Assembly: GCA_026874595.1 (NCBI GenBank)
Contig: CM049314.1
Span: 35,631,229 to 35,695,228, forward strand
Source: Sipunculus nudus
Lineage: Eukaryota; Annelida; Sipuncula; Golfingiida; Sipunculidae
Length of the DNA: 64,000 nucleotides
Reading direction: 5' to 3'
Shown here: in pieces, positions 1,813 through 54,232 of the stretch
How positions within the stretch are numbered: position 1 is the stretch's first letter
Layout of the letters: each line of letters begins with the position of its first letter
Position numbers and translations under genes: made by a program
The notes under the pieces: model-generated
What the model was told of the DNA's origin: nothing
Database searches by the model: none
The model's input: only the letters and a program-made list of their open reading frames with translations

Positions 1813-3717
1813 CTATCGAAGTTGGTACACTGTGGGACCTTTGTCACAATTGTACTGATTCATCCAAAGCCGCCAGGTGGAATCACATGCAATGTGCATC
1901 GGATTTTTGATACCATCATCCTGAGTGAGAACATGTCTGAGTAATGATCCGTCTGTATTGTACTCTGAAACCCTGTGGTTTTTACTGTCAGCAACTAGGA
2001 TTGTTCCGGTCGGTGTGGAGGTAGTGGATGTCACATGAGGCCTCATTTTACCATGAACAATGCTCAGTTCACCAACTTCTTTTCCGGATTCATCCCACAA
2101 TTTCACACAGTTCTCGTATGATATGATGTAAGTATCACAGTCCATGTTGCTAGCAACTTCTATTTCCACAAAGTCGTCAGTGATGAGGTTCTTCTTCCAC
2201 AATTGCTTGCCATCTGGGCTGTACTTATATACGTCAGCTTCTTGAATAGCATCAGATATTAACACATTTCCTGATGAATCGAGCGTGATTCTGGAGTTAC
2301 TTCCAACAGGGATGTCAAAATCCTTCATAAAAAATACTTTGTTCGAACATACCTGTACTTCTGACACCCATTTCTCATAAATGTTCCAACAGAGAACCCT
2401 GTCCTTGTACGCCGAGATGCACGTAGCATTTCGTGACGTACTTAAGGTAGACGAATGACCTGTAAACAGGTCACACAGAATTAAGTCCTCTTCGTTCTCT
2501 GATACAACTATGGCAGAGCCATGTGATAATGCACCAATGCCACCAGTGCATTCACTTCTACAGTCGGAAAAATTACAGATAACATTTGGTGTCTTGACGT
2601 CTGTACCTGTTGGAGAAAATTTCGTGCCCCATGTATTACATTCAAGTATCACGTTCAGCTTTTCCTGAGAACTTTCATTTAGATATTTTAAACTCCCAAC
2701 CTTTGACCTAGGTTCTCTGACAAACTGAACGATTATAGGGACGTTAACTTTCTGCAAAAGTTCATCTGCTGCCTTTAGTTGATTTTCTATTTCACGTACT
2801 GTGTCTTTTTGTTGCACAATTTCAGAGCAATTCCTCTCGTTATACTCCAAAGTTAGACACATTTCTTGCCTTCTTTCTATTATATTTGTGATTAAACTGA
2901 CTTTTTGCTCTGTGGGATTCAAACATTTAGTTTCAAGTTCTTTCAGGAGTTCTTCCTTGTTTTTGTCAATGGATGCCTTCGATGTTTCGGCGGCACTGGC
3001 TATTTCCATTTTAACTCTCTGAAACCGTTCATTCTGTTTTAAATGGTTGTCCAGCAGAGAGCGCAGTTGTGAAATTTGTTCTGTAAGCAAGTTCCTCTTT
3101 ACTGTCATTTCAGTTCTGATTTCTTCGGCTTTCTGGGCGAGTAAACTCACAGAGCCTGGATGAGAATCATGTTCCCCGCTTAACAGACAATCAGTACAAA
3201 CAAGCGCTTCACAATCAGAGCAAAAATACTTGTATACATTTGAATGCCTCTTGCAAGAGCTTGCGCAAGCGCTTTCTCTCTTCAAAGTTTCCAGTGAATG
3301 CGAGCCAAAGCCGGGAAACTTATTATGCCTTTTACAGCAGGATTCGCAAAGCCGACGGTCACAAGTGATACATTTCACAGTTGCGTTCACGAAATTCCCG
3401 TTGCCCAAGCATGTGTTGCACGTATCGCCTTGGTGGAGTGAACTTATCTGACCGTTGGTTTGTTCTATTGAACTTTTCTGAGGTAAATTTCCGACCTGTT
3501 CCTCTGGTAATTCCGTGCGTTTCCTGCAGGTAGGACAGGTAACAAAATCACCGTCTTTGGTGGCTTTTTCGACGATACTGTCGAGACAATGAGTGCAAAA
3601 TGTATGTAAACAACGAAGTTGTCGTGGGGATCTTTTTCCTAAAGGATTAAAACAGATCTGGCACGCGAGCATGTCAGCTTTTTCTGTAAAGGGTACCTTT
3701 GATGAATTGCCAGCCAT
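1813..3717 (-). CDS. TRIM protein: RING, two B-boxes, coiled coil, NHL-like propeller (E3 ubiquitin ligase type)
   Basis: This is a single uninterrupted frame of 634 codons. The N-terminus has a full C3HC4 RING finger (Cys19, Cys22, Cys36, His38, Cys41, Cys44, Cys61, Cys64). B-box 1 follows (Cys100, Cys103, Cys116, Cys119, Cys124, Cys127, His131, His140), then B-box 2 (Cys155, His158, Cys166, Cys169, Cys174, Cys177, His183, His186). A helical, charged stretch at about 190-330 should form the antiparallel coiled coil. The C-terminal third looks like a beta-propeller; one repeat, about 571-600 with VADSKNHRV, is clearly NHL-like. The architecture is that of TRIM2/3/56/71-type proteins, which act as RING E3 ligases. 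Substrate and pathway cannot be inferred. The start is supported by a splice acceptor only 9 nt upstream, so the gene has at least one 5' UTR intron and an intronless coding region. Every zinc ligand is present, so it looks functional, unlike its copies at 39.3-39.7 and 58.9-60.2 kb. Confidence 0.93.
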   Translation of the reverse strand: MAGNSSKVPFTEKADMLACQICFNPLGKRSPRQLRCLHTFCTHCLDSIVEKATKDGDFVTCPTCRKRTELPEEQVGNLPQKSSIEQTNGQISSLHQGDTCNTCLGNGNFVNATVKCITCDRRLCESCCKRHNKFPGFGSHSLETLKRESACASSCKRHSNVYKYFCSDCEALVCTDCLLSGEHDSHPGSVSLLAQKAEEIRTEMTVKRNLLTEQISQLRSLLDNHLKQNERFQRVKMEIASAAETSKASIDKNKEELLKELETKCLNPTEQKVSLITNIIERRQEMCLTLEYNERNCSEIVQQKDTVREIENQLKAADELLQKVNVPIIVQFVREPRSKVGSLKYLNESSQEKLNVILECNTWGTKFSPTGTDVKTPNVICNFSDCRSECTGGIGALSHGSAIVVSENEEDLILCDLFTGHSSTLSTSRNATCISAYKDRVLCWNIYEKWVSEVQVCSNKVFFMKDFDIPVGSNSRITLDSSGNVLISDAIQEADVYKYSPDGKQLWKKNLITDDFVEIEVASNMDCDTYIISYENCVKLWDESGKEVGELSIVHGKMRPHVTSTTSTPTGTILVADSKNHRVSEYNTDGSLLRHVLTQDDGIKNPMHIACDSTWRLWMNQYNCDKGPTVYQLR

Positions 3718-3740
3718 CTGTGTAATCTGTAAAACAAAAA
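3718..3740 (-). other. splice acceptor of a 5' UTR intron in front of the TRIM start codon
   Basis: On the minus strand a T-rich tract followed by TTTTACAG (AG at 3,728-3,727) stands 9 nt before the ATG. The same acceptor-plus-ATG arrangement survives in front of the pseudogene copies at 39,728 and 60,189, which argues that it is real. The upstream non-coding exon could not be located. Confidence 0.6.
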
Positions 3741-3926
3741 AGAATATGTTTCATTGCTTCCGGAGGATGACCTCTTTTCAACTGCCTTCAAATACGAGGA
3801 TCACGTTTAGTTTACACTCGAAGATTCCCAGCCTGATACATTGTATGGTGTACATGTAGACTAGATACAATATTACGTCTATAACAAATGTGGACTGTAA
3901 AAGGCAATTTCACCACAATTTGCCGG

Positions 3927-27644: not shown

Positions 27645-27776
27645 ATGACTCGGCACTTGCTTATGATGTATTGTAGTTACTTTCTGTGTACAACTTCAGG
27701 TTAGTATATTTCTGTTCTATGTATTGTATTTTATATTTTAATTAAATTGCCATTGCATTTCCCTGATTAATATATA

Positions 27777-27827
<51 letters not shown>

Positions 27828-28595
27828 CGATTTTTAGAGCTGCATAGTTTTGCTTGTATTTCCATTGTTTTGTCTTCCATATACAAGTACTCATATAACA
27901 GCTAAAGGCATACTGATTGCTTGAGTTAGAAAAGCACAGAATTGAAGAATATCCCAAAGTGAGGCCTGCGTCCCTGGCTATATAGAATACCTTATAATAC
28001 TTCACGATTTTTGAAATTTTGTTTATATAAATACACAGTATCACATAAGCTATCCAACTTTTCACATAAGCTATTGGAGATAAGTACTAATTAACCAGAT
28101 TTCTCAATTGTCAATATATTTATTACAAAAGAAAATAAATTGAATATAATCATTTGACAGAACATTACAATGATCATAATTTAGCGTTTTATTAAAGTCA
28201 AATTCTTTCATTTCCTACCCCTGTTCAGTCCGTGTTTGAACCCTCTTTATAATACAGGAGGTCTGCAATATCTTCTTGTCTTTCCATCCATCGACGAAAC
28301 TGACGAAGCTTGGGAATTCCAAGTAATGATTTCGACATTTGCTACTGAGGCAAATGTCCAGGTACGACGTTACTATATTTTGACATATGTGTTAACGGTA
28401 AAACTTAATAATATAAACATCAATATTTATCTGATGATAAGGTGCACTTATCATACATGTCACAGCATAGAGTTATTTGAAAACTCGGATACTTAATGGT
28501 GTTAGTCTACAGTAAGGTATCCGCTTCATCTAGTTCCTCAACTGAACTGAGAAATTTCATGGCTTAACAGCATAGAACACAAACACACACACATA

Positions 28596-28646
<51 letters not shown>

Positions 28647-31600
28647 GCATGAACACTGAACTATCTAATCATCATCGACCGCGGGCAACATGAGGCCCAC
28701 GATGTAAATCGATGTAAACACCCGATTGCGTCCTTGCGTGGAGGTTTCAGTTTGTGTGGTTCCAAACAATGTCCTAATAATTAATGGCTACAGGAGAACC
28801 TGGTTTGAAATTATAGTCTAACTTCATTTTGACATGGAATCCCTATTTCTTTAATATTGAGGATCTTCAACTTTCAACAAATTTCCCACCAGGTATGACA
28901 CTGACATAAACACACTATAGGTCACATAAACATACGAAGAGATCGTCATGAATGTTCATGAATATTCAGATACCAAGTCTTAGATCAAATGTGGTAAAAC
29001 TCCTCCACTTTATTTTTCCTTCAATCTGCGCTCCAAAAGCAGCGGTTACGCTATGCTCAACTATTCGCTACATTAACGGATGCAAGAAACCGTGGGTGCC
29101 AGTCAAGTTTAGCCACCAGGCGGTGTTGCCTCTTTGGAAATCCCCCTGCAAAGCATTTACCCCATCACATTGCAGACACTGCACAATCGGGTGTTGTTCG
29201 AGGTGCCAGTCAATTTGCACTGCGGTAGAATGTGTTTTGTAGCATAGATTTTTTCCACCGCCCGTTGGAATACACATGATCACCAACTTTCAAAATAGTT
29301 TCCATACTAATATGCTTGTTTGGCCTGAGGTCAGTTATCCCACACTCGTTGCATATTGCCTCTCATAATATTTTAGCTTTTCCAGAAAAAAACTGACTGG
29401 GTGTTTGGCAACTTGCCATACCTGAAGAATCCTGTTCTCACAGCCTGTGAGTGGAAGGTCACCGGGAGATCACGCGCTGTGTTCAAAGCGTATCCTCCAA
29501 TCATGCAAGTGAAGGCTTTGCACTGGAAGGGTCTTTATAAAAATAGGTACCAGTTTGTGGAAGAACTCCACTAAAAATGTAATGTTAGCATGTAATGTTC
29601 TGTTTTGATTCTAACTTTTTAACTGCTTATAACTGCTCGCCTTAAGAGCAAGAGATCATCTAATCTAAGAAAAAGAAAACCTAAAAAAAATATTAAATAG
29701 TTCTGCGTGTGATTCCCCTGCAACTTCCCTGAGTTGTAAGTTGTCTATGCAGCGTTTGTGAGTATTTTACTTACACAATAGGTTAATTTGATTTTTGGGT
29801 TAGCTTTATCCCTTGACCCCCGTATGCTTATAAGACTCAATATCCCCCCCCCCTTTTTTTAAGAGACACCAGCATAATGTGGCCTGTTGCTCCTGATATT
29901 TGAATATTGATGGACATTCATGATGATCCTTTTGCTAGACCTCTCGTGTGTTTATGTATGCTTTCATGCATACCTTGTGGCAAATAAGTGCATGAGTAAA
30001 AGGAGCCTAGTAAGAAGAATGTTGTTAAATAACCTTATGTAGATATGATTTTAGGATAAATTGGGTTGATAGGGAGTCAAATTTAGGGAGTCATGAAAAA
30101 TTAGTGGGAAGGTTGGTTAGATAATTGACAGGGCGTTGGGTCCCGTGATGCTCATACAATTGTTCACCTGATTAATGCAGTCAGTCAGATTCTTCTGCCG
30201 CCACACTATAAACAGTAACAAGTCTATGTTAATTACGTTATCTACTTGGTTCTATAATTAGTTCTCTTGCTTATCATTTTCTCGCTGTTCTCTGTACTTA
30301 AGGTTCTAGGATCCAATATGTCACAGCAAATTTGGATACAGAGAGATCAACCTTGTCGTTTGTATCTGGAGAGGCAACAATATTATATGAGAAATTTCTT
30401 TATGGTAGAAAAAAAAGCAATTCTTGTTAAGTCGGAAACACCTATTCTAGTTCAAGGTCACTTGGATGATAGAGGATCTGCCGGAGGGTACACTGCTTTT
30501 CCAGTTGGACGGGGAGACAATCAATTTATAGTTACTGCTTACACCGATTTCAGGTCCGATTTCAATTCCGACATTATTGTTGCAGCTGTTAGTGATAATA
30601 CAAACGTGGAAGTATCCTTCCCAAACGGGTCGTCTACCGTTATAAATTTACCAGCTTTTGGAACTTACTCTATCAGATCTAACACCGATCTAACAGGAAC
30701 CTTGGTTGCAGCTAACGGTTCGATTGCTGTATATTCTGGACATATTTGTGCAAATGTGCCAGTGAGTGTCGATTATTGCGATCGTTTGATTGAAGGAATC
30801 CCTCCTTTGTCGTATCAAGGGAAGAACTACATCATACCCTCAATAGGTGGCAGAAGGAAAGACACTGGGTATGTCGTTCGTGTCCTATCCGTAGGCTTAT
30901 ACGGCAGCCTTTCCACGTCAGAAAAATTGTATACCAACACTCACAAGGAAATCAATTTTCAATCAAACATACCACGGGCTCTCAATTGCACGGTAGATTG
31001 TTTTGTTTATATGTTTAACAAAGGGGGTGAAGCCGATTCATCAAAATCTGATCCATTCATGATGCGGGTCGTCCCTGTCATTCAATACGCAAATCAATTG
31101 ATGTGGATTACACCTATACGTTCAAATGCATCTTCGGGAGATCAATACCAACATTATGTAAGCATTATTGTGCCAACAGAAGAAGCATCTGGTGTTTTGT
31201 TAGATGGGAAAAGTGTAAATCAGTCTCTATGGTCTGTAGTTGAAATGTCCATGTTTAGTGCCATCTCTCTCTCGATAAAGGGTGGAGTTCATATTGTTCA
31301 TAATACTAACTCCAATGTAAAAATGGCTGCATACGCATATGGGCATGGACAAACAGTTGAGGTTGGATATGGCTTCCCAGCCAGTGCCATTGGTAAGTAA
31401 ACCGTACTATTGTACAATGGTGAGAGGGGTACATTGGAGATGTTTTATGTAGTATGATAAAGTAACAAGAAATAATTTAACCAAACATGGTTATCATTTA
31501 GCAGTTTTAAAATGGACTCAATAGGCCTATGGGATCGTATGTTTCACGCACTTCGGTGCAAAATGATGTCACACAGGACTTAAGATCAGACATCAAGGGA

Positions 31601-32695
31601 AAAGAATTCCACTATCAGAGCATACATATTAAGCCTGCATGATTTTATTAATGAATACATTTCCTTATGATTCCATCGGAGGCAGACCAGGCAGTCACTT
31701 CGGATTTAAAGAAAGAGAAACGAAGTTTGGCAGGTATGGATTTTGATGATATTTCATAGTTTCCTTTCATGAATAAGAAAGAAATGTGTTTCTTTGTGTT
31801 TTTTTTTACTCCCTTACGGGTTGCCTGCCATCCTTTTTCTTCTTTTCTCACCATATCTACTCATCAATTAAAGCTCAATCAATTAAAAACCCATGAATTT
31901 CAAGTCGTAAAGTGTACCCTTGTAATTTCTAATATTTTTAAATGTAAACTAAGTGCATGTGGTTTCCCCCACACAAGTTTTGATGATGAGGATCACCTAT
32001 ATCGTTTTATGTGGAAGTATTTGTGTATGCGTCCCCCTTTCTTTATAGGTGTATGTAGTTCCGCATATTTTGCTTTTGATTTGATATATATTAGACGATA
32101 ATGAAAAATTTAAATATGTTTAAAAGGTATGTACAAAATATCCACTCGGAGTCACATTAGGCCAACTGACACATGCAAAAAATATCTTATATGATTTAGA
32201 TTTATCTCAGCCCGCGGACTTGTACATAACTATTCTGTTGGGTATGGCCATCATAGCTGGAGTCCTCCTTTCATTACTCATTGCAACCTGGATCGCTTGT
32301 TTAATAAAGATTCGGTAAGCCGTGCTATTATGATAAATGAATTAAACTTGAGCGTAACATTCGTCGAGTTTTGTATTAGGCACTCTCTTTATGAATCATG
32401 ATAAATATTATATGTTTTATACTATAATGCTTCCGATCGTAGAGCGGTTCCCGTGTTAAGGTTTTAGTTATGATTAAGCAAAATTGAACAATCAGGATAA
32501 TACCTTAAGTATCATTTAGACTAATGTATAATCTGTGAATTCAGGAAGTGTAACAGACAAGCGAGTTCCCCTCCACCACGACCTCCCAGGATCCCTCAAG
32601 AGGGTGTTGAGACAATGGATGACAGGGTGTATTACACGCACTTGTCTGGAGCTGGTCATTCAGAACCCCATGTCTATCAGTCGGTGAGAAGGTAG
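27645..32695 (+). CDS. IgGFc-binding-domain receptor 1, type I membrane protein, six coding exons
   Basis: Exons: 27,645-27,699; 28,258-28,361; 30,303-31,392; 31,686-31,733; 32,200-32,314; 32,545-32,695. All introns are GT-AG and phases match throughout (1,0,1,1,2), giving 520 residues. Exon 1 is a signal peptide (MTRHLLMMYC...). Residues about 20-416 form one IgGFc-binding domain (the FCGBP N-terminal type): YSGH at 197-200, Cys202 and Cys212 in the C-x2-VP...C-D-R-L-x-E pattern, Cys282 and Cys286, DPFMMRVVP and a YGFP end. A 17-residue linker follows, then a membrane segment at about 442-468. The ~50-residue cytoplasmic tail has PPPRPPR (482-486, SH3 ligand type), ITIM-like VYYTHL (499-504) and a terminal YQSV (515-518). 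Family members bind glycoproteins or Fc in vertebrates; the ligand here is unknown. The paralog is at 47.1-54.2 kb. Confidence 0.9.
27781..27825. repeat. (TA)n microsatellite in intron 1 of gene 1
   Basis: Pure TA run. Confidence 0.9.
28593..28645. repeat. (TA)n microsatellite in intron 2 of gene 1
   Basis: An (AC)n run leads into a TA run. The counterpart in gene 2 intron 2 is at 50,863-50,908. Confidence 0.9.
29070..29356 (-). pseudogene. RecQ-helicase-like fragment in intron 2 of gene 1
   Basis: The minus strand encodes CNECGITDLRPNKHISMETI and then, after a one-base shift, VIMCIPTGGGKNLCYK. L-R-P-N-(Q) followed by the PTGGGK-LCY Walker A is the hallmark of RecQ motifs 0 and I. The next part (QCLQCDGVNALQGD) loosely resembles the DQ-x-L-x-x-x-G-V-x-A-x-x-L segment that follows in RecQ, with much missing between. 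The piece is frameshifted and truncated and lies antisense in an intron. Gene 2 lacks it. It is either a processed or transposed gene scrap or cargo of a mobile element. Confidence 0.55.
29357..30302. other. remainder of intron 2 of gene 1
   Basis: Plus-strand frame 29,383-29,575 (ending in ELH and a stop) is open for about 60 codons but resembles no family I know. The rest is AT-rich with a C9/T7 run near 29,845. Nothing else is seen. Confidence 0.4.
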
Positions 32696-47104: not shown

Positions 47105-50100
47105 ATGACTCGGCACTTGTTCCTGATGTATTGTATTTATATTTTGTGTGCAACCTCAGGTTAGTGTATTTTTGTTATATTTATTGTAATTTATGAAACA
47201 AATGGTCCCTTAAGCTTCCCTTAAGTATCAGTAGATGATACCAGGAAAAGAACGGACATAAAAAAATCATAATATCAAATCATATTTCAATACGTGTTGC
47301 AAATTATGAAAATAAAATTTAAAGATCTGCATAGAACTGCTGGTATTTCCCTATTTTTGTCTTCCCTATACAAGTACACAAAATATAGCCCCTGATATAA
47401 TAACCGTTCATGTTAGAAAGACTATTTTTTTTCAATATAAATTTGCAGGACTAAAAATAAGTTTTCTCTTGTGAATGCCTTAAACATTTTTACTTATTCT
47501 CTTCTGAGTTAACTCCTACAGTTTAAATAAATGAACTACTTAGACAGATAAAGCAACGTTTCAAATTAAAGCAAAAGTGTTAATTTGAAAAAAGCAATAT
47601 ATCTGCATCTATTTACACAGACCCCCGGAAGGGTATGCTTGAATGCCGGGTGGTCTCTGTGTGTCTTTGTGTTTTTGTTTGTTGACTATACAACTCACAT
47701 TATCATGAACGTTTCTCATGAAAAGTTCCTGTCATTTCTGAATTCGGCTAGGTAAGAATGGAATTTTAGTGAGAATCAACCCCAAGATCCAGGTCTAGGA
47801 TTATTCACACATGTAAAATCACTTGTGTAGGAATGAGCTTGGGGATATTGGCCGAATAGGTGAACGTTATTGCGGGATGGGGAACTTCTGCACGGATGAA
47901 CCTGGGAGCTTGGCCAAATAAAAGAAGGAAAACATATTTTGGGGAGCAACCCCGAATTAAAGGATCACTACATCAGGCCAGGATTCCTCAGAATTATTTT
48001 TCTAGTTATAAAGATTATAAAATTTGCATACAACATTTATGTTAGGAACTAAATGCCAGTATACAGACCTACAGCTTTTCAGTTTCCTATGGCTTTGTGT
48101 CAATAGTAATATATTCTCCGGGGATACAAGATACACTAGTAAGATACACTAGTTTTATTACATAATGAAAGCGTTGGTTATACAAAATAAATAGAAGTAT
48201 TGTATAAATTTCATCGAGATGTTTCGAAATGTTGTTTATATAAAAACACAACTACTAAGAGCGATCCATATTAGTCCAGGGTCAGTTGTCAAGTTATAGA
48301 TTCCCTTGAGATTTCAATTAAAAACGGAAGTGCTTCCTTCCTTTCTCGAAGAAACGAGGTATAGTGAACCAGTTTTAGATTTGGTAAGAGAATTCACATA
48401 CGTCTCACTGTATAACAGATTTTTAAATTATGTGATATCACATAAATAGTTAATGTACTGGAGTCAGCTTAGCTTAAACAATTTTAATAAATGAACTTCT
48501 ATGCAGGGCTCTTGTAATCAGCTCAGCGGACATTCCATCATACTGAGATGTACAGCTCTTAAATTTCTATCATCATTCGATCTGGCCCCCCGGCCAACTG
48601 TAATTTACATGGAACAAATCATAAAAGCTACAATAGGCAACGCTTTTTCTGAAAGCGGGCAGGGGGCGCATTAGGGTAGAGAATTTGAGGGCACATAAGT
48701 CACGAAGGGGTTGGGTGTGGGAGGTGGCCACCCGTTCACATGGTATTGAAAATTAAAAAAAAAAAGTTACACATGAAACATGCATTTTCAATGCAGTTTT
48801 TTGGCCATTTTCCTAATTTTGATCACATGCTGCATCAGTCAAAAATTACCATATTTTTTTTTAACATCTTCATGTGTAACCAATTAATAATATTTATATT
48901 TAAAAAAAAAAGTTATCTTCAAATATCAATATCAAATATTGCCCTCTCTAAAGCCAAGAAATTTCTTGCTAGAGATCTATCAGGACTCAGTGAAAGCTTC
49001 TTTGACTCCCGGAATTCACCGTGACATGTAAAACACGAGCACAGAGATGCTTTTGAGCAAACTAGAAGTAAAAGTCTTCTGACTGTTGAAGGCTGTTGAA
49101 CATAGATTTACTAAATGGGATCACAAATCAAAATAACGTAGTTCATTGCCACATTATTCTCTGTCAAGATGAACAATCAAAAACAAAACTGAAACAAAGA
49201 GTTCTTTTGAAATAATTGCAGTAAACCTTAATATTTGATATTGAACTTACTTGAGAAAAACTAGCAGTATTTAAAGTCCCATGTCTTGAGCTACAATATA
49301 TAATATCTCCTCCTTTCGAGGAAATTTGCAAGACCGCTTATAACCAGACAACTGGCCGTTAACTATCAATTCAGTGCATTGATCTTTAATGATCTTACGA
49401 TATCGAACCTCAGTGAAGCTCAAACGCAAACATATTAAACAACAGGAATATGCTTTTAAAGAATGTCCTTGACATACTTAATTTCTATAGCAATAAAGAT
49501 ATTTTTATTTCAAAAGCTTTGACCTTGACCTTGTTTCTTGACCTTAAAACTGTATTGTAAATTGGCATCAATATTCATATATTTACATGGTTACAATATT
49601 TAACATGATGTATTTTGTAAGCTTTACTCATAAAAATCCTACAGAAAAAAAATTGACTCCTAAATAAAGATATGTTAAAAACCTGACCTTGACCTTGTTT
49701 GTTCACTTTGAATTTGCATAGAAAGGATGACAACATTGATGTTTCGATTGATATGATTATAAATTTTAAATTATATGTATTGCCAGACTTTATATGAATA
49801 TTCTATTTGTTAACAACTCATTCTAGAAAATTCAAGAAATATTAAAAGTTATGACTTTGACCTTGTCTGTTGGCCTAGAATCTGAAGGAGGAAATTGCGA
49901 CAATGATTTTTAGATTGATATGAATGTTAGCTATAACATTAATCTTATTTATTGACCGTTATTTCATAAATAAAATTTGGAAACATAGGTTTTAACACTG
50001 AAAACGTAATATGCTTTAACATGATCGCATATTGTCAGTTATTTTCATTAAATTCCCACGGAATGACAACTGGCCATGAAAAATTTAATAAATATCAAAA

Positions 50101-50857
50101 CCCGTAAACATGATATTGTTTGGTGACCTTGAAATCGTTAAGGCAAAATGCAACGTAGATATTTAGATTTAAATTGTTTGAATCTTTAAAATTATATATG
50201 TTGCCAGTTATTTTCATTATATTCTAAAGGAGTGACAGCTGACACTGGTTAAATTAAAAATTTATTAAAAGCCATGACCTTGACCTTGTTTGGTGACCTT
50301 GAAACTGTAGGATAAAAATGGCAACATGGATTTCGGATTGCTTAGGTAATAAGCTTTAAAATAATGTATGTTTCCAGCTTTCTTCACAAAATTCCCACGG
50401 AAAGACAACTGATCCTGGACAATATCAGATAAGTTATCAGAGATTGATATTATTTAATCAAATTTCTTTTCTTTTTTTTGCCAATATATCTGTTAAAGAT
50501 AACATATTTGAATAAACTTATTTGACAGAACATAACATTGGTTACAAAACAACGTTTCGCATCATATTCCAGGAGGTCTGCAATATCTTCTTGTCTTTCC
50601 ATCAGTCACAGAAAATTATATCTGGGAATTCCAAGTAATGATTTCCACAATGGCTGCTGACGCAAATATCCAGGTACAACGTTACTATTTTCTTACATTT
50701 GTCTGAATAACAAAATAATAATAATTACCACATATATATAATCATTAGGTCCATTTCCATACCTGTTGACGGATACTGTTACCAGAAAGCTCGGATGAGT
50801 AAAGTACGTTTGTCTCTCAGAAGAAGTTATTTTCATTTATTTCCTCAACTGAACTGT

Positions 50858-50911
<54 letters not shown>

Positions 50912-53900
50912 AATATGTTTTTTTGACAGAACATCAAATTACTCGTCAAATTACTAGAAAAAATTATAACCGTGGGCAGCATGCGGCTCATGATGTAAAT
51001 TAATGAAAACACCAGTGAGCGTCCTTGCATGAAGATGTCAGTTTGTGCGGTCTCAAACATTCTTCCATCAAGTAAAGCCTTTATATGGGGTACTTGTTTT
51101 GAAATACCGGTCAAGCTGAAATCTGCAAAACAATCAATCCCTTTTACTGTGATACTGAAGTATCAACAACTGATCGGGTTTGCTCTAACATTTCAATATC
51201 AGTTTATTGTCATAAACATAGCTAATGGCTTTTATAAATATGGAGATTGTGTAGCTGATGTAAACTGGCGACAACGGTACTTTTAGGAAGGAAACTAGAT
51301 GAAACGTATTAGGAGCCATCTGTCATATCAAGTATTGACGTACATTGTCATCTCATTCCTTCAAAAACTGGCTGAAATGTTCTGTACGGAAAACATTACT
51401 ATATTTCCTTCACTGAATTTACACTGACTCTCTCTGCTTTCAAATTACAATTTCTATGTTATAAGTGGATTATGCCAGTCAGTTATCGGATTAATATTAT
51501 CTGGATCTGGTCTGCTTTGACCACTGTATGGAATGTCCAATATGCTAGATTATATGTGGCAAACACCGCCACATCCACGTTTCTAGGGGGAACAGGCACA
51601 TTTAGCGTATGAAAGCCACGTTATATAGGCGTCAAATAAAGTTATGAAACTTATGGCGTCTTAATTTCAACAACATATTGACCGACTCCTAGGGGACAGT
51701 ATTGTTCAATAGAGTTACAAGTCCATCTCATATAATCTACTTGATTTTGCATTTTTATTGCTTATCATTATCTCACTGTTCTATTAACTTAGGTTCTTGG
51801 ATCGAATATGTCGCAGCATTTTCGGATACAGAGAGATCAACCATTTCGTTTATATCTGGACAGAAAAGAATTGTGTGTTAGCAAATTCTTCACGGTAGAA
51901 GAAAAGGCAGTTCTTGTCAAATCTGAAACACCCATTCTAGTTCAAGGTCACTTGGAAAGCAAAGGCAGTGTGGGAGGGTACACTGCCTTTCCAATTGAAG
52001 TGGGAAACAACCGATTTATAGTTACCTCATTCACCGATTTTAGGACCGATTACAATTCCGACATTACCGTTGCAGCTGTTAGTGATAATACAAACGTGGA
52101 AGTATTATTCATAAACGGGTCGTCTATTGTTATAAATTTACCAGCTTTTGGAACTTATTCTGTCAAATCTGAAACGGATCTAACGGGAACCTTGGTGGCA
52201 GCTAACCGTCCAATTGCTGTATATTCTGGACATATATGTGCAAACGTACCAGTGAATGTCCCGAATTGCGATCGTCTGATTGAAGGAATCCCTCCTTTGT
52301 TTTATCAGGGGAAGAAATACATCATACCATCAATAGGTGGGAGGAGTAAAGACACTGGGTACATTGCCCGTGTCTTCTCAGTAGGGTTACACGGAAGTCT
52401 TTCTACATCTGGAAACTTTTATATCAACACTCACACGGAAATAAATTTCCATTCAAACATACCACGGGCTCTCCATTGCGCGGTAGGTTGTTTTGTGTAC
52501 TTGTATAACAAAGGACATGACGCCGATTCATCATATTCTGATCCATTCATGATGCGGGTCATCCCTGTCATCCAGTACGCTAACAAATTGATGTGGATTA
52601 CACCTATTCGTTCCAATGCGTCTTCTGGTGATCAATTCCATCACTATGTTAGCATCATTGCGCCAACAGAAGAAACATCTGGTGTTCTGTTAGATGGGAT
52701 AAGTGTTAATCAGTCTCTGTGGTCTATAGTTGAAAATTCTATGTTTAGTTCCATCTCTCTTTCGACCACGGATGGACTGCATACTGTGTATCACACTAAA
52801 TTAAATGTGAACATGACTGCTTATGCTTATGGTCACGGACAAATTCACACAGTTGGATATGGCTTCCCAGTTAGTGCTTTTGGTTAGTACACGTACTATA
52901 ATATAATGATGAATATTACTTACAATGAAGGTGTATTACAGATGATAAAGTAGCATTCCGTTGTGTCACATCTAAATTACTAATTTCAAACTAACGTTAA
53001 TCACAGTGCATGATCATTATTAAGCTATGTAGCATAAACAGAACCTAAGTTCAAGAAACCGTATGTTTGAGGTATTGCAGAAGAAATAAATGTCACGCAG
53101 GACATAACAGTTAAACAATGTTACTGTCAGAATTATTAAATCAGCTTGATTTTAATCTTAATTAAATGGTTTTTTTTTATTATGTCCTCGGTAATAGACG
53201 ATGCAAATAAAGAGAAACCAGGGATGGCAGGTATGGCTTTGAAAGAGAATCTTTCATGTATTTTTCTTCATAAATAACTAAAAAGTGCTTCTCTGTGTAT
53301 CTCTGCTACTTATTTCTTATTCAATTCTGTTTGCCATGTATTCCTTTTTCTTCTTTTCTCCCCGCCTCTCCTCATCGATTATAGCTGAATAGTTCAGTCG
53401 AATGTCCTAAAGATTAAACTTGCGTTATGCACCCTTGTACTTCCTATTTTAATATTAAAATTAAGTAATTCTGGTTGTATGTGGTGTATTCCATACATGA
53501 TGCAAAGTCTTGCTGATGTGGCTTTACATACAGCGTTTTATCTGATAGTATTTGTTCATGCGTCTGCCTTCCGTATAAGTGTATATGGTTCCGCATATTC
53601 ACTTTATTATATGATATATAATTGGCGATTAAAATATAAATAGATCGCCTTTAAAACAATGAGGAACGTACAAAATATCCCTTGCGTCATATTTGCCAAC
53701 AGAGACATAACACATTTCCCTTATCTTATTTAGCTTTATCTCAGACTGCGGCCTTGAACAAAACAATTACTTTGGGCATGGCCGTTACAACTGGTCTCCT
53801 CCTGTTAATGCTCATCGCCACCTGGATCACGTTTTTTATAAAGATTCGGTAAGCCAGAATATTATGATTAAAAATACACGTAAGCGTCACATTTGTCGAG

Positions 53901-54232
53901 GTTTGCTTTATTTTCTTAGCCATTCTCTGCATGAAACGATGAAATATGTAAAAACCTTATAATGTAAAACGTTGTGATTGTACAGCGGTTATTTGTTTAA
54001 AGCTTTTGTTTATGATTGAGTAAAACTGAACACTCGGGGTAACGCTAAAAAGTTTCATTTAAGACTAATATCTGAATTCAGGAAGCGTGACAGACAAGGG
54101 AGATCCCCTCCTCCACGTCCTCCCAGGATCCCCCATGAAGATGTTGAGACAATGGGTGACAGGGTTTACTACACGCACTTGTCTGGAGCTGGTCATTCTG
54201 AACCCCACGCCTATCAGTCAATGAGAAGATAA
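47105..54232 (+). CDS. IgGFc-binding-domain receptor 2, type I membrane protein, six coding exons
   Basis: Exons: 47,105-47,159; 50,573-50,673; 51,793-52,882; 53,198-53,230; 53,734-53,848; 54,082-54,232. Exons 1, 3, 5 and 6 have exactly the lengths of gene 1 (55, 1,090, 115 and 151 nt). Exon 2 is one codon shorter and linker exon 4 five codons shorter, and phases are the same, giving 514 residues. Exon 1 is a signal peptide (MTRHLFLMYC...). The single IgGFc-binding domain keeps YSGHICANVPVNV, the C-D-R-L-I-E pattern, the later Cys pair and YGFP. The membrane segment is at about 437-462 (LGMAVTTGLLLLMLIATW). The tail keeps PPPRPPR and ITIM-like VYYTHL (493-498), but the last tyrosine motif is YQSM (509-512), which fits the YxxM site bound by PI3-kinase p85. 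Intron 1 is 3.4 kb, against 0.56 kb in gene 1. All splice sites are canonical. Confidence 0.9.
47160..49500. other. first part of intron 1 of gene 2
   Basis: AT-rich. A T-rich, A-rich stretch at 48,740-49,020 and short frames match nothing I know. No counterpart is seen in gene 1 intron 1. Confidence 0.4.
49505..50440. repeat. ~165-bp tandem repeat with TGACCTTGACCTTG core in intron 1 of gene 2
   Basis: Five diverged units are marked by CCTTGTTTGGTGACC-like words at about 49,529, 49,693, 49,861, 50,113 and 50,282 (spacings 164, 168, 252 and 169). Each is followed by a GGCAACATTGAT-like phrase, TTTCGATTGATATGAT, and a TTGCCAGTTATTTTCAT...CCCACGGA phrase. Confidence 0.75.
50863..50908. repeat. 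(TA)n microsatellite in intron 2 of gene 2
   Basis: Pure TA run; counterpart of 28,593-28,645. Confidence 0.9.
50910..51792. other. remainder of intron 2 of gene 2
   Basis: Up to about 51,060 it aligns with 28,650-28,790 (GGGCAACATGAGGCCCACGA-like, GCGTCCTTGC). The last 70 nt, TTGCTTATCATT...TCACTGTTCT, are the acceptor region shared with gene 1. The RecQ-like piece is absent. Nothing else is seen. Confidence 0.5.

Follow-up and report, generated by a model that had tools for sequence, protein, structure and literature searches.

The domain family IgGFc_binding (PF17517) is named after FCGBP. Vertebrate receptors of the FcgammaR, FcRL, KIR and LILR groups are single-pass membrane proteins encoded in gene clusters; their ectodomains are Ig-like and their tails carry immunoreceptor tyrosine-based inhibitory or activation motifs (ITIM or ITAM). 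To our knowledge, invertebrates have no IgG, and their tyrosine-motif immune receptors known so far are built on Ig and leucine-rich repeat (LRR) ectodomains. FCGBP is described as a large mucin-like protein that is secreted and has, besides 12 vWD-C8-TIL repeats in tandem, an N-terminal H domain of 450 residues that contains the Fc-binding region (PMC9354016). For the amphioxus receptor BbLcLRR, ITIM or ITIM-like tyrosines, phosphorylation by Lck and an inhibitory effect in T-cell assays are reported, and an amphioxus ITIM receptor associates with SHIP1 and less with SHP1/2 (PMC8211107). In oyster, CgIgIT2 is described with an ITAM, and a cited title calls it an inhibitory receptor (PMC11999971), while blocking of CgSiglec-1 enhanced phagocytosis, the passages on CgSiglec-1 giving no ITIM for this protein itself (PMC11999971, PMC5877582). 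Mollusc and echinoderm proteins that were named IgGFc-binding or matched by BLAST appear in reports on mucus, adhesion, coelomocytes and genes responsive to pathogen-associated molecular patterns (PMC6337334, PMC7430831, PMC7333891, PMC10320347, PMC11925454). The locus presented here is situated in a window of 64,000 nucleotides from Sipunculus nudus (GenBank assembly GCA_026874595.1, contig CM049314.1, positions 35,631,229 to 35,695,228). With a probability of about 0.6, the product of the gene at window positions 27645-32695 (+) is a type I cell-surface receptor that spans the membrane once, has a one-IgGFc_binding ectodomain and belongs to a tandemly duplicated, diversified and possibly paired family with tyrosine-tail signalling.

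Six exons on the forward strand with AG/GT borders and entry phases of 0, 1, 0, 1, 1 and 2 yield 520 amino acids (aa) and a stop; the six exons, the numbers of Tyr501 and Tyr515 and the place of the proline motif agreed exactly with an initial annotation made from the sequence alone. Exon 1 (27645..27699) holds the start codon and the leader MTRHLLMMYCSYFLCTTS and ends in phase 1. Exon 2 (28258..28361, phase 1 to 0) encodes the N-terminal part of the ectodomain, GLQYLLVFPS...EANVQ. The IgGFc_binding domain resides in exon 3 (30303..31392, phase 0 to 1) and is followed by a poorly conserved stalk of 16 residues in exon 4 (31686..31733, phase 1 to 1), the transmembrane helix in exon 5 (32200..32314, phase 1 to 2) and the cytoplasmic tail in exon 6 (32545..32695), which terminates with TAG. 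The single IgGFc_binding domain of the initial annotation was recovered by a Pfam scan, scoring 132.1 bits where the cut-off is 25.6, the match to PF17517 covering aa 117-400 and profile positions 4-297 of 297. It was the only family above cut-off in the 520-aa model. Unlike FCGBP, the protein combines a single domain with a membrane helix and a tail; vWD gave no match, hence the tandem vWD-C8-TIL repeats are missing; no Ig family was present among Pfam matches up to E 1. Relatives in the PDB were absent by sequence (0 matches), and three profile matches at E 0.34-0.38 were taken as chance. The ectodomain carries 6 N-glycosylation sequons. The most hydrophobic 19-residue window spans aa 442-460 in exon 5 (mean 2.77), and since no such window outside aa 425-475 exceeds 1.14, a single helix is predicted. 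The helix, ITILLGMAIIAGVLLSLLIATWIACLI, lacks the charged residue that receptors associated with ITAM adaptors carry there. It is followed by IKIRKCNR, therefore the tail of 49 residues is predicted to be cytoplasmic. This tail has the SH3-ligand motif PPPRPPR of the initial annotation at 480-486, VYYTHL with Tyr501 at 499-504 and Tyr515 in VYQSV. Altogether, the focal product is very probably a membrane receptor.

The window contains a tandem paralog, copy 2 (47105-54232, +), with a counterpart for each of the six exons in equal phases: a leader exon (47105-47159) with the sequence MTRHLFLMYCIYILCATS and a donor similar to the focal one, exon 2 (50573-50673), the domain exon with 76% identity to the focal gene (51793-52882), a shorter exon 4 (53198-53230), the membrane exon (53734-53848) and a tail exon (54082-54232) that retains PPPRPPR, VYYTHL and AYQSM. 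A frameshift or pseudogene interpretation of the focal gene, based on a splice-like segment at 29386 and an A8 run leading into a stop ahead of the domain, was discarded, since in copy 2 the frame of the domain is conserved as far back as an acceptor in phase with exon 2; by the same comparison, the segment at 29386 is not an exon. A third copy, c0, lies upstream of the window at a distance of about 2.5 kb (C9:35626236-35628697; contigs are cited as C with a number). Its exon 2, domain, membrane and tail exons were identified, the membrane-exon donor being shifted downstream in frame; a simple scan found no exon 4. Ratios of nonsynonymous to synonymous substitution (dN/dS) for the three pairs among focal gene, copy 2 and c0 were 0.33, 0.30 and 0.31 for the whole protein and 0.22, 0.22 and 0.32 for the tail exon (Fisher P 0.003, <0.001 and 0.009), exon 4 being left out as too short and divergent. 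Judged by these values, the tail exons are under purifying selection. Values for the membrane exon, 0.47, 0.53 and 0.44, show weaker constraint than in the tail and were not significantly below 1 (P 0.079, 0.119 and 0.054). In the tails, RVYYTHLSGA shows purely synonymous differences among the three copies; outside of it the tyrosine module has the changes G/D, E/K and V/A, with Tyr515, Gln and Ser kept, so that RVYYTHLSG and PH(V/A)YQS(V/M/I) are common to all three. Hydrophobicity windows, paralogs and the dN/dS of the tail thus bore out the proposal of one membrane helix with a short conserved tyrosine tail. The SH3 class II pattern was kept in two of these three copies and occurred in none of the other ten of the 12 tails counted.

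The genome, 1.43 Gb, was searched for family members and SH2 genes. PF17517 had 59 matches, some of them fragments, and the focal domain exon as query found 63 places. Thirteen genes including the focal one, chosen as nearest relatives by sequence, were followed far downstream. A membrane exon was present in 12 of them: seven in a cluster at C9:35.42-35.83 Mb, four on C12 and one at C9:62.0 Mb. At all 12 loci, a phase-1 acceptor and a phase-2 donor were available at the expected place of the membrane exon, and a phase-2-acceptor exon with a short tyrosine tail followed. Exon 2 had a counterpart upstream of the domain in all seven cluster copies. Thrombospondin segments occurred in five of the 13 genes, on C12 located between domain and membrane helix; the four that were scored (C12:28.917, C12:29.782, C12:29.702 and C3:75.198) all had a TSP_1 Pfam match, and the segment of the C12:28.966 copy resembles TSP_1 by eye. 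The C3:75.2 copy, with a stop in the domain, has the thrombospondin repeat and no membrane exon within 3.6 kb. In a tree of 19 domain sequences, the seven membrane forms in the set, six from the cluster plus C12:29.78, formed one clade with a support of 1.00, inside which the branch joining the cluster copies had a support of 0.25. Elsewhere, threonine/proline-rich segments were observed near two IgGFc_binding copies at C9:33.8, and EGF-like segments near two copies at C6:33.9.

Tail motifs were counted for seven patterns in the 12 family tails, each with shuffle tests; a second candidate tail exon at C9:62 was left out of these counts. The focal VYYTHL conforms to the ITIM pattern [I/V/L/S]xYxx[I/V/L]. 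A strict ITIM arose in 6.7% of the shuffles of the focal tail, thus the evidence is its conservation in three paralogs and not the pattern match, which was rejected as evidence. The focal pair, YTHL-x10-YQSV, differs from a strict ITAM, Yxx[L/I]-x6-8-Yxx[L/I]; the arrangement YxxPhi-x6-12-YxxPhi arose in 1.2% of the shuffles. Two YxxPhi spaced by 9-10 residues are present in five of the seven cluster tails, one of them from the copy at C9:35.42 (c35.42), whose tail reads DYTEL and VYYVL. The tail of cM35.78 has NYCTI and LYENV, that of cM35.81 IYESI. The copy c35.83 (C9:35833571-35833771 and beyond) possesses a tail of 165 residues with TEYAIIANDQFYYTAL, a canonical ITAM (YAII-x6-YTAL) and the further motifs YTAL, YTPL, YTPL and YELM. 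Six YxxPhi in total were reached in <0.1% of 5000 shuffles of this tail, and a strict ITAM in 0.4%, without correction for the 12 tails and 7 patterns. With the focal tail as query, convincing matches were the three close copies among five, the other two having E 1.7 and 6.2; the c35.83 tail matched itself alone. As the tails diverged while the frame of the membrane exon remained constant, the family most likely provides similar ectodomains with different outputs in the manner of paired receptors.

The focal tail would probably work via tyrosine phosphorylation. In the proposed mechanism, the ectodomain may bind a mucin-, glycan- or microbe-associated ligand rather than IgG, and receptor clustering would lead to phosphorylation of Tyr501 and Tyr515 by a Src-family kinase. 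A SHP-type phosphatase could then dock with its SH2 domains on VYYTHL and dampen the response, and/or a Syk-type kinase could dock on the YTHL-x10-YQS[V/M/I] pair and cause phagocytic activation. Candidate partners appear to be encoded in the genome: among the matches listed were SH2, SH2 and phosphatase exons at C15:31555394-31587318 (-) and two arrays of two SH2 and kinase exons (-) near C9:28.33-28.35 and C9:28.81-28.83 Mb. From the exon order, the former appears to be a SHP-type gene and the latter appear to be Syk- or Shark-type genes. Among the signalling outcomes inhibition has a small lead, given the strict ITIM VYYTHL and a focal pair without the ITAM spacing; still, a net inhibitory rather than activating output is rated at somewhat below even chances. 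The ITIM assigned in the initial annotation stood as a pattern conserved in three paralogs, but this label is not the only fitting one, because an ITAM-like pair and YxxPhi endocytic signals suit the focal tail as well and a cluster paralog carries an ITAM. A tentative extension, judged from the tails, is a paired-receptor system on the IgGFc_binding fold, in which a shared ectodomain would be combined with ITIM-type (focal, copy 2, c0) or ITAM-type tails (c35.83). The focal family resembles FcgammaR, FcRL, KIR and LILR as clustered single-pass receptors with ITIM- or ITAM-type tails and differs in a focal ectodomain without Ig match. The initial annotation spoke of an Fc-receptor-like architecture; a functional equivalence to Fc receptors was not supported, because the ligand is derived from the domain name and IgG is, as far as we know, missing in invertebrates.

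Several observations weigh against the tyrosine-signalling receptor. The leader, a putative signal peptide that is kept in copy 2, is the weakest part of the focal gene model: it is short and of weak hydrophobicity, its best 19-residue window reaching 1.08 and its best 11-residue window 1.78. The c35.42 copy has stop codons in the domain. At 23 further loci, no convincing membrane exon was detected within flanks of 1.5 kb each, where several had hydrophobic open segments, nor in three of these loci at C9:33.8 Mb after extension by 3-4 kb. Strict ITIMs are confined to four of the 12 tails (focal, copy 2, c0 and C9:62.0). YxxPhi is present in all 12, but this is no independent test because the tail candidates were partly picked by YxxPhi before the intron phase was checked; the five tails from C12 and C9:62 have one YxxPhi each, and one arises in 23-46% of shuffles. 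Moreover, YxxPhi also serves clathrin-mediated endocytosis, for which phosphorylation is unnecessary. The focal protein might accordingly be an endocytic or phagocytic scavenger receptor that clears ligand-bound particles or mucus, with YTHL and YQSV read unphosphorylated by AP-2 as sorting signals and an incidental likeness to an ITIM. The prevalence of YxxPhi over the strict ITIM agrees with this function, as does the variation of V, M and I at +3 of the second tyrosine, which fits Phi, and oyster mucus contains a reported IgGFc-binding protein (PMC6337334). However, the conservation in three paralogs takes in the -2 Val and, past the YTHL core, SGA, the second tyrosine keeps a constant distance of 14 in these paralogs, and AP-2 sorting has no need of the canonical ITAM in the cluster paralog; we regard the scavenger function as unlikely.

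Only in the sign of the output does the phosphorylated receptor favoured here differ from an activating ITAM-like receptor, whose YTHL-x10-YQS[V/M/I] would dock a Syk-type tandem-SH2 kinase. FcgammaRIIA provides an example of a long-spaced ITAM docking such a kinase. The paired YxxPhi in five of seven cluster tails, including that of c35.42 with its domain stops, the canonical ITAM of c35.83 and the SH2-SH2-kinase exon arrays in the genome are consistent with activation, yet the 10 residues between the two focal motifs exceed the consensus of 6-8, and V at +3 of the second tyrosine deviates from the strict ITAM, so activation is considered rather unlikely. The gene may also encode a protein that is chiefly secreted or acts as a matrix adhesive, the membrane form being minor. 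Both genes of the window have an in-frame stop right behind the donor of the domain exon (31393-31400; 52883-52887), and intron retention past exon 3 would read GK-stop and release a soluble ectodomain. Such a product would match the IgGFc-binding proteins described as secreted mucus or adhesive components in the reports cited above. Against it stand the purifying selection on the tail exon and the phase of the membrane exon kept over 12 loci, making a mainly secreted product improbable; the dN/dS of the membrane exon itself, 0.44-0.53, does not differ significantly from 1 in that direction.

Some features of the window and the assembly were observed besides the receptor genes. At window positions 1813-3750 (-), an open frame of 645 residues with RING, B-box and NHL-type Pfam matches represents an apparently intronless TRIM-like gene, and repeats of the TGACCTTGACCTT type, which look bivalve-like, occur near 49500-50400. 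An insert resembling mitochondrial COX1, interrupted by a single in-frame TGA, was located at C5:67852325-67852477. It reads HHMFT, GMDVD and GIK, which we take to be the conserved COX1 forms, solely with ATA as Met and AAA as Lys, so the code is not that of echinoderms, and an echinoderm origin was rejected. Stop-free COX1-family matches on the small unplaced contigs C60, C61, C62, C66, C72, C74, C75, C89 and C123 may be sequence of a bacterial associate or a contaminant in the assembly.

No account of an IgGFc-binding protein with receptor architecture was found in searches aimed at it within an open-access library, judged by titles. BbLcLRR is likewise an invertebrate receptor with a tyrosine-motif tail, but its ectodomain is described as LRR, and the mollusc receptors CgIgIT2 and CgSiglec-1 are, unlike the focal receptor, described with Ig-domain ectodomains. 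As far as seen, the combination is new and has to be regarded as a variant of tyrosine-motif receptors, not as a new type of signalling. In the available descriptions, IgGFc-binding proteins of marine invertebrates have so far been assigned to mucus, to adhesives or, loosely, to immunity; a membrane-anchored subset whose conserved tails are of ITIM or ITAM type would give testable receptors in place of an annotation by name only, and the invertebrate immune receptors with tyrosine motifs would gain a further ectodomain fold. If the paired system were true, it would allow one ligand class to be read as stop or go, and it would be convergent with the vertebrate FcR, KIR and LILR clusters on an unrelated ectodomain.

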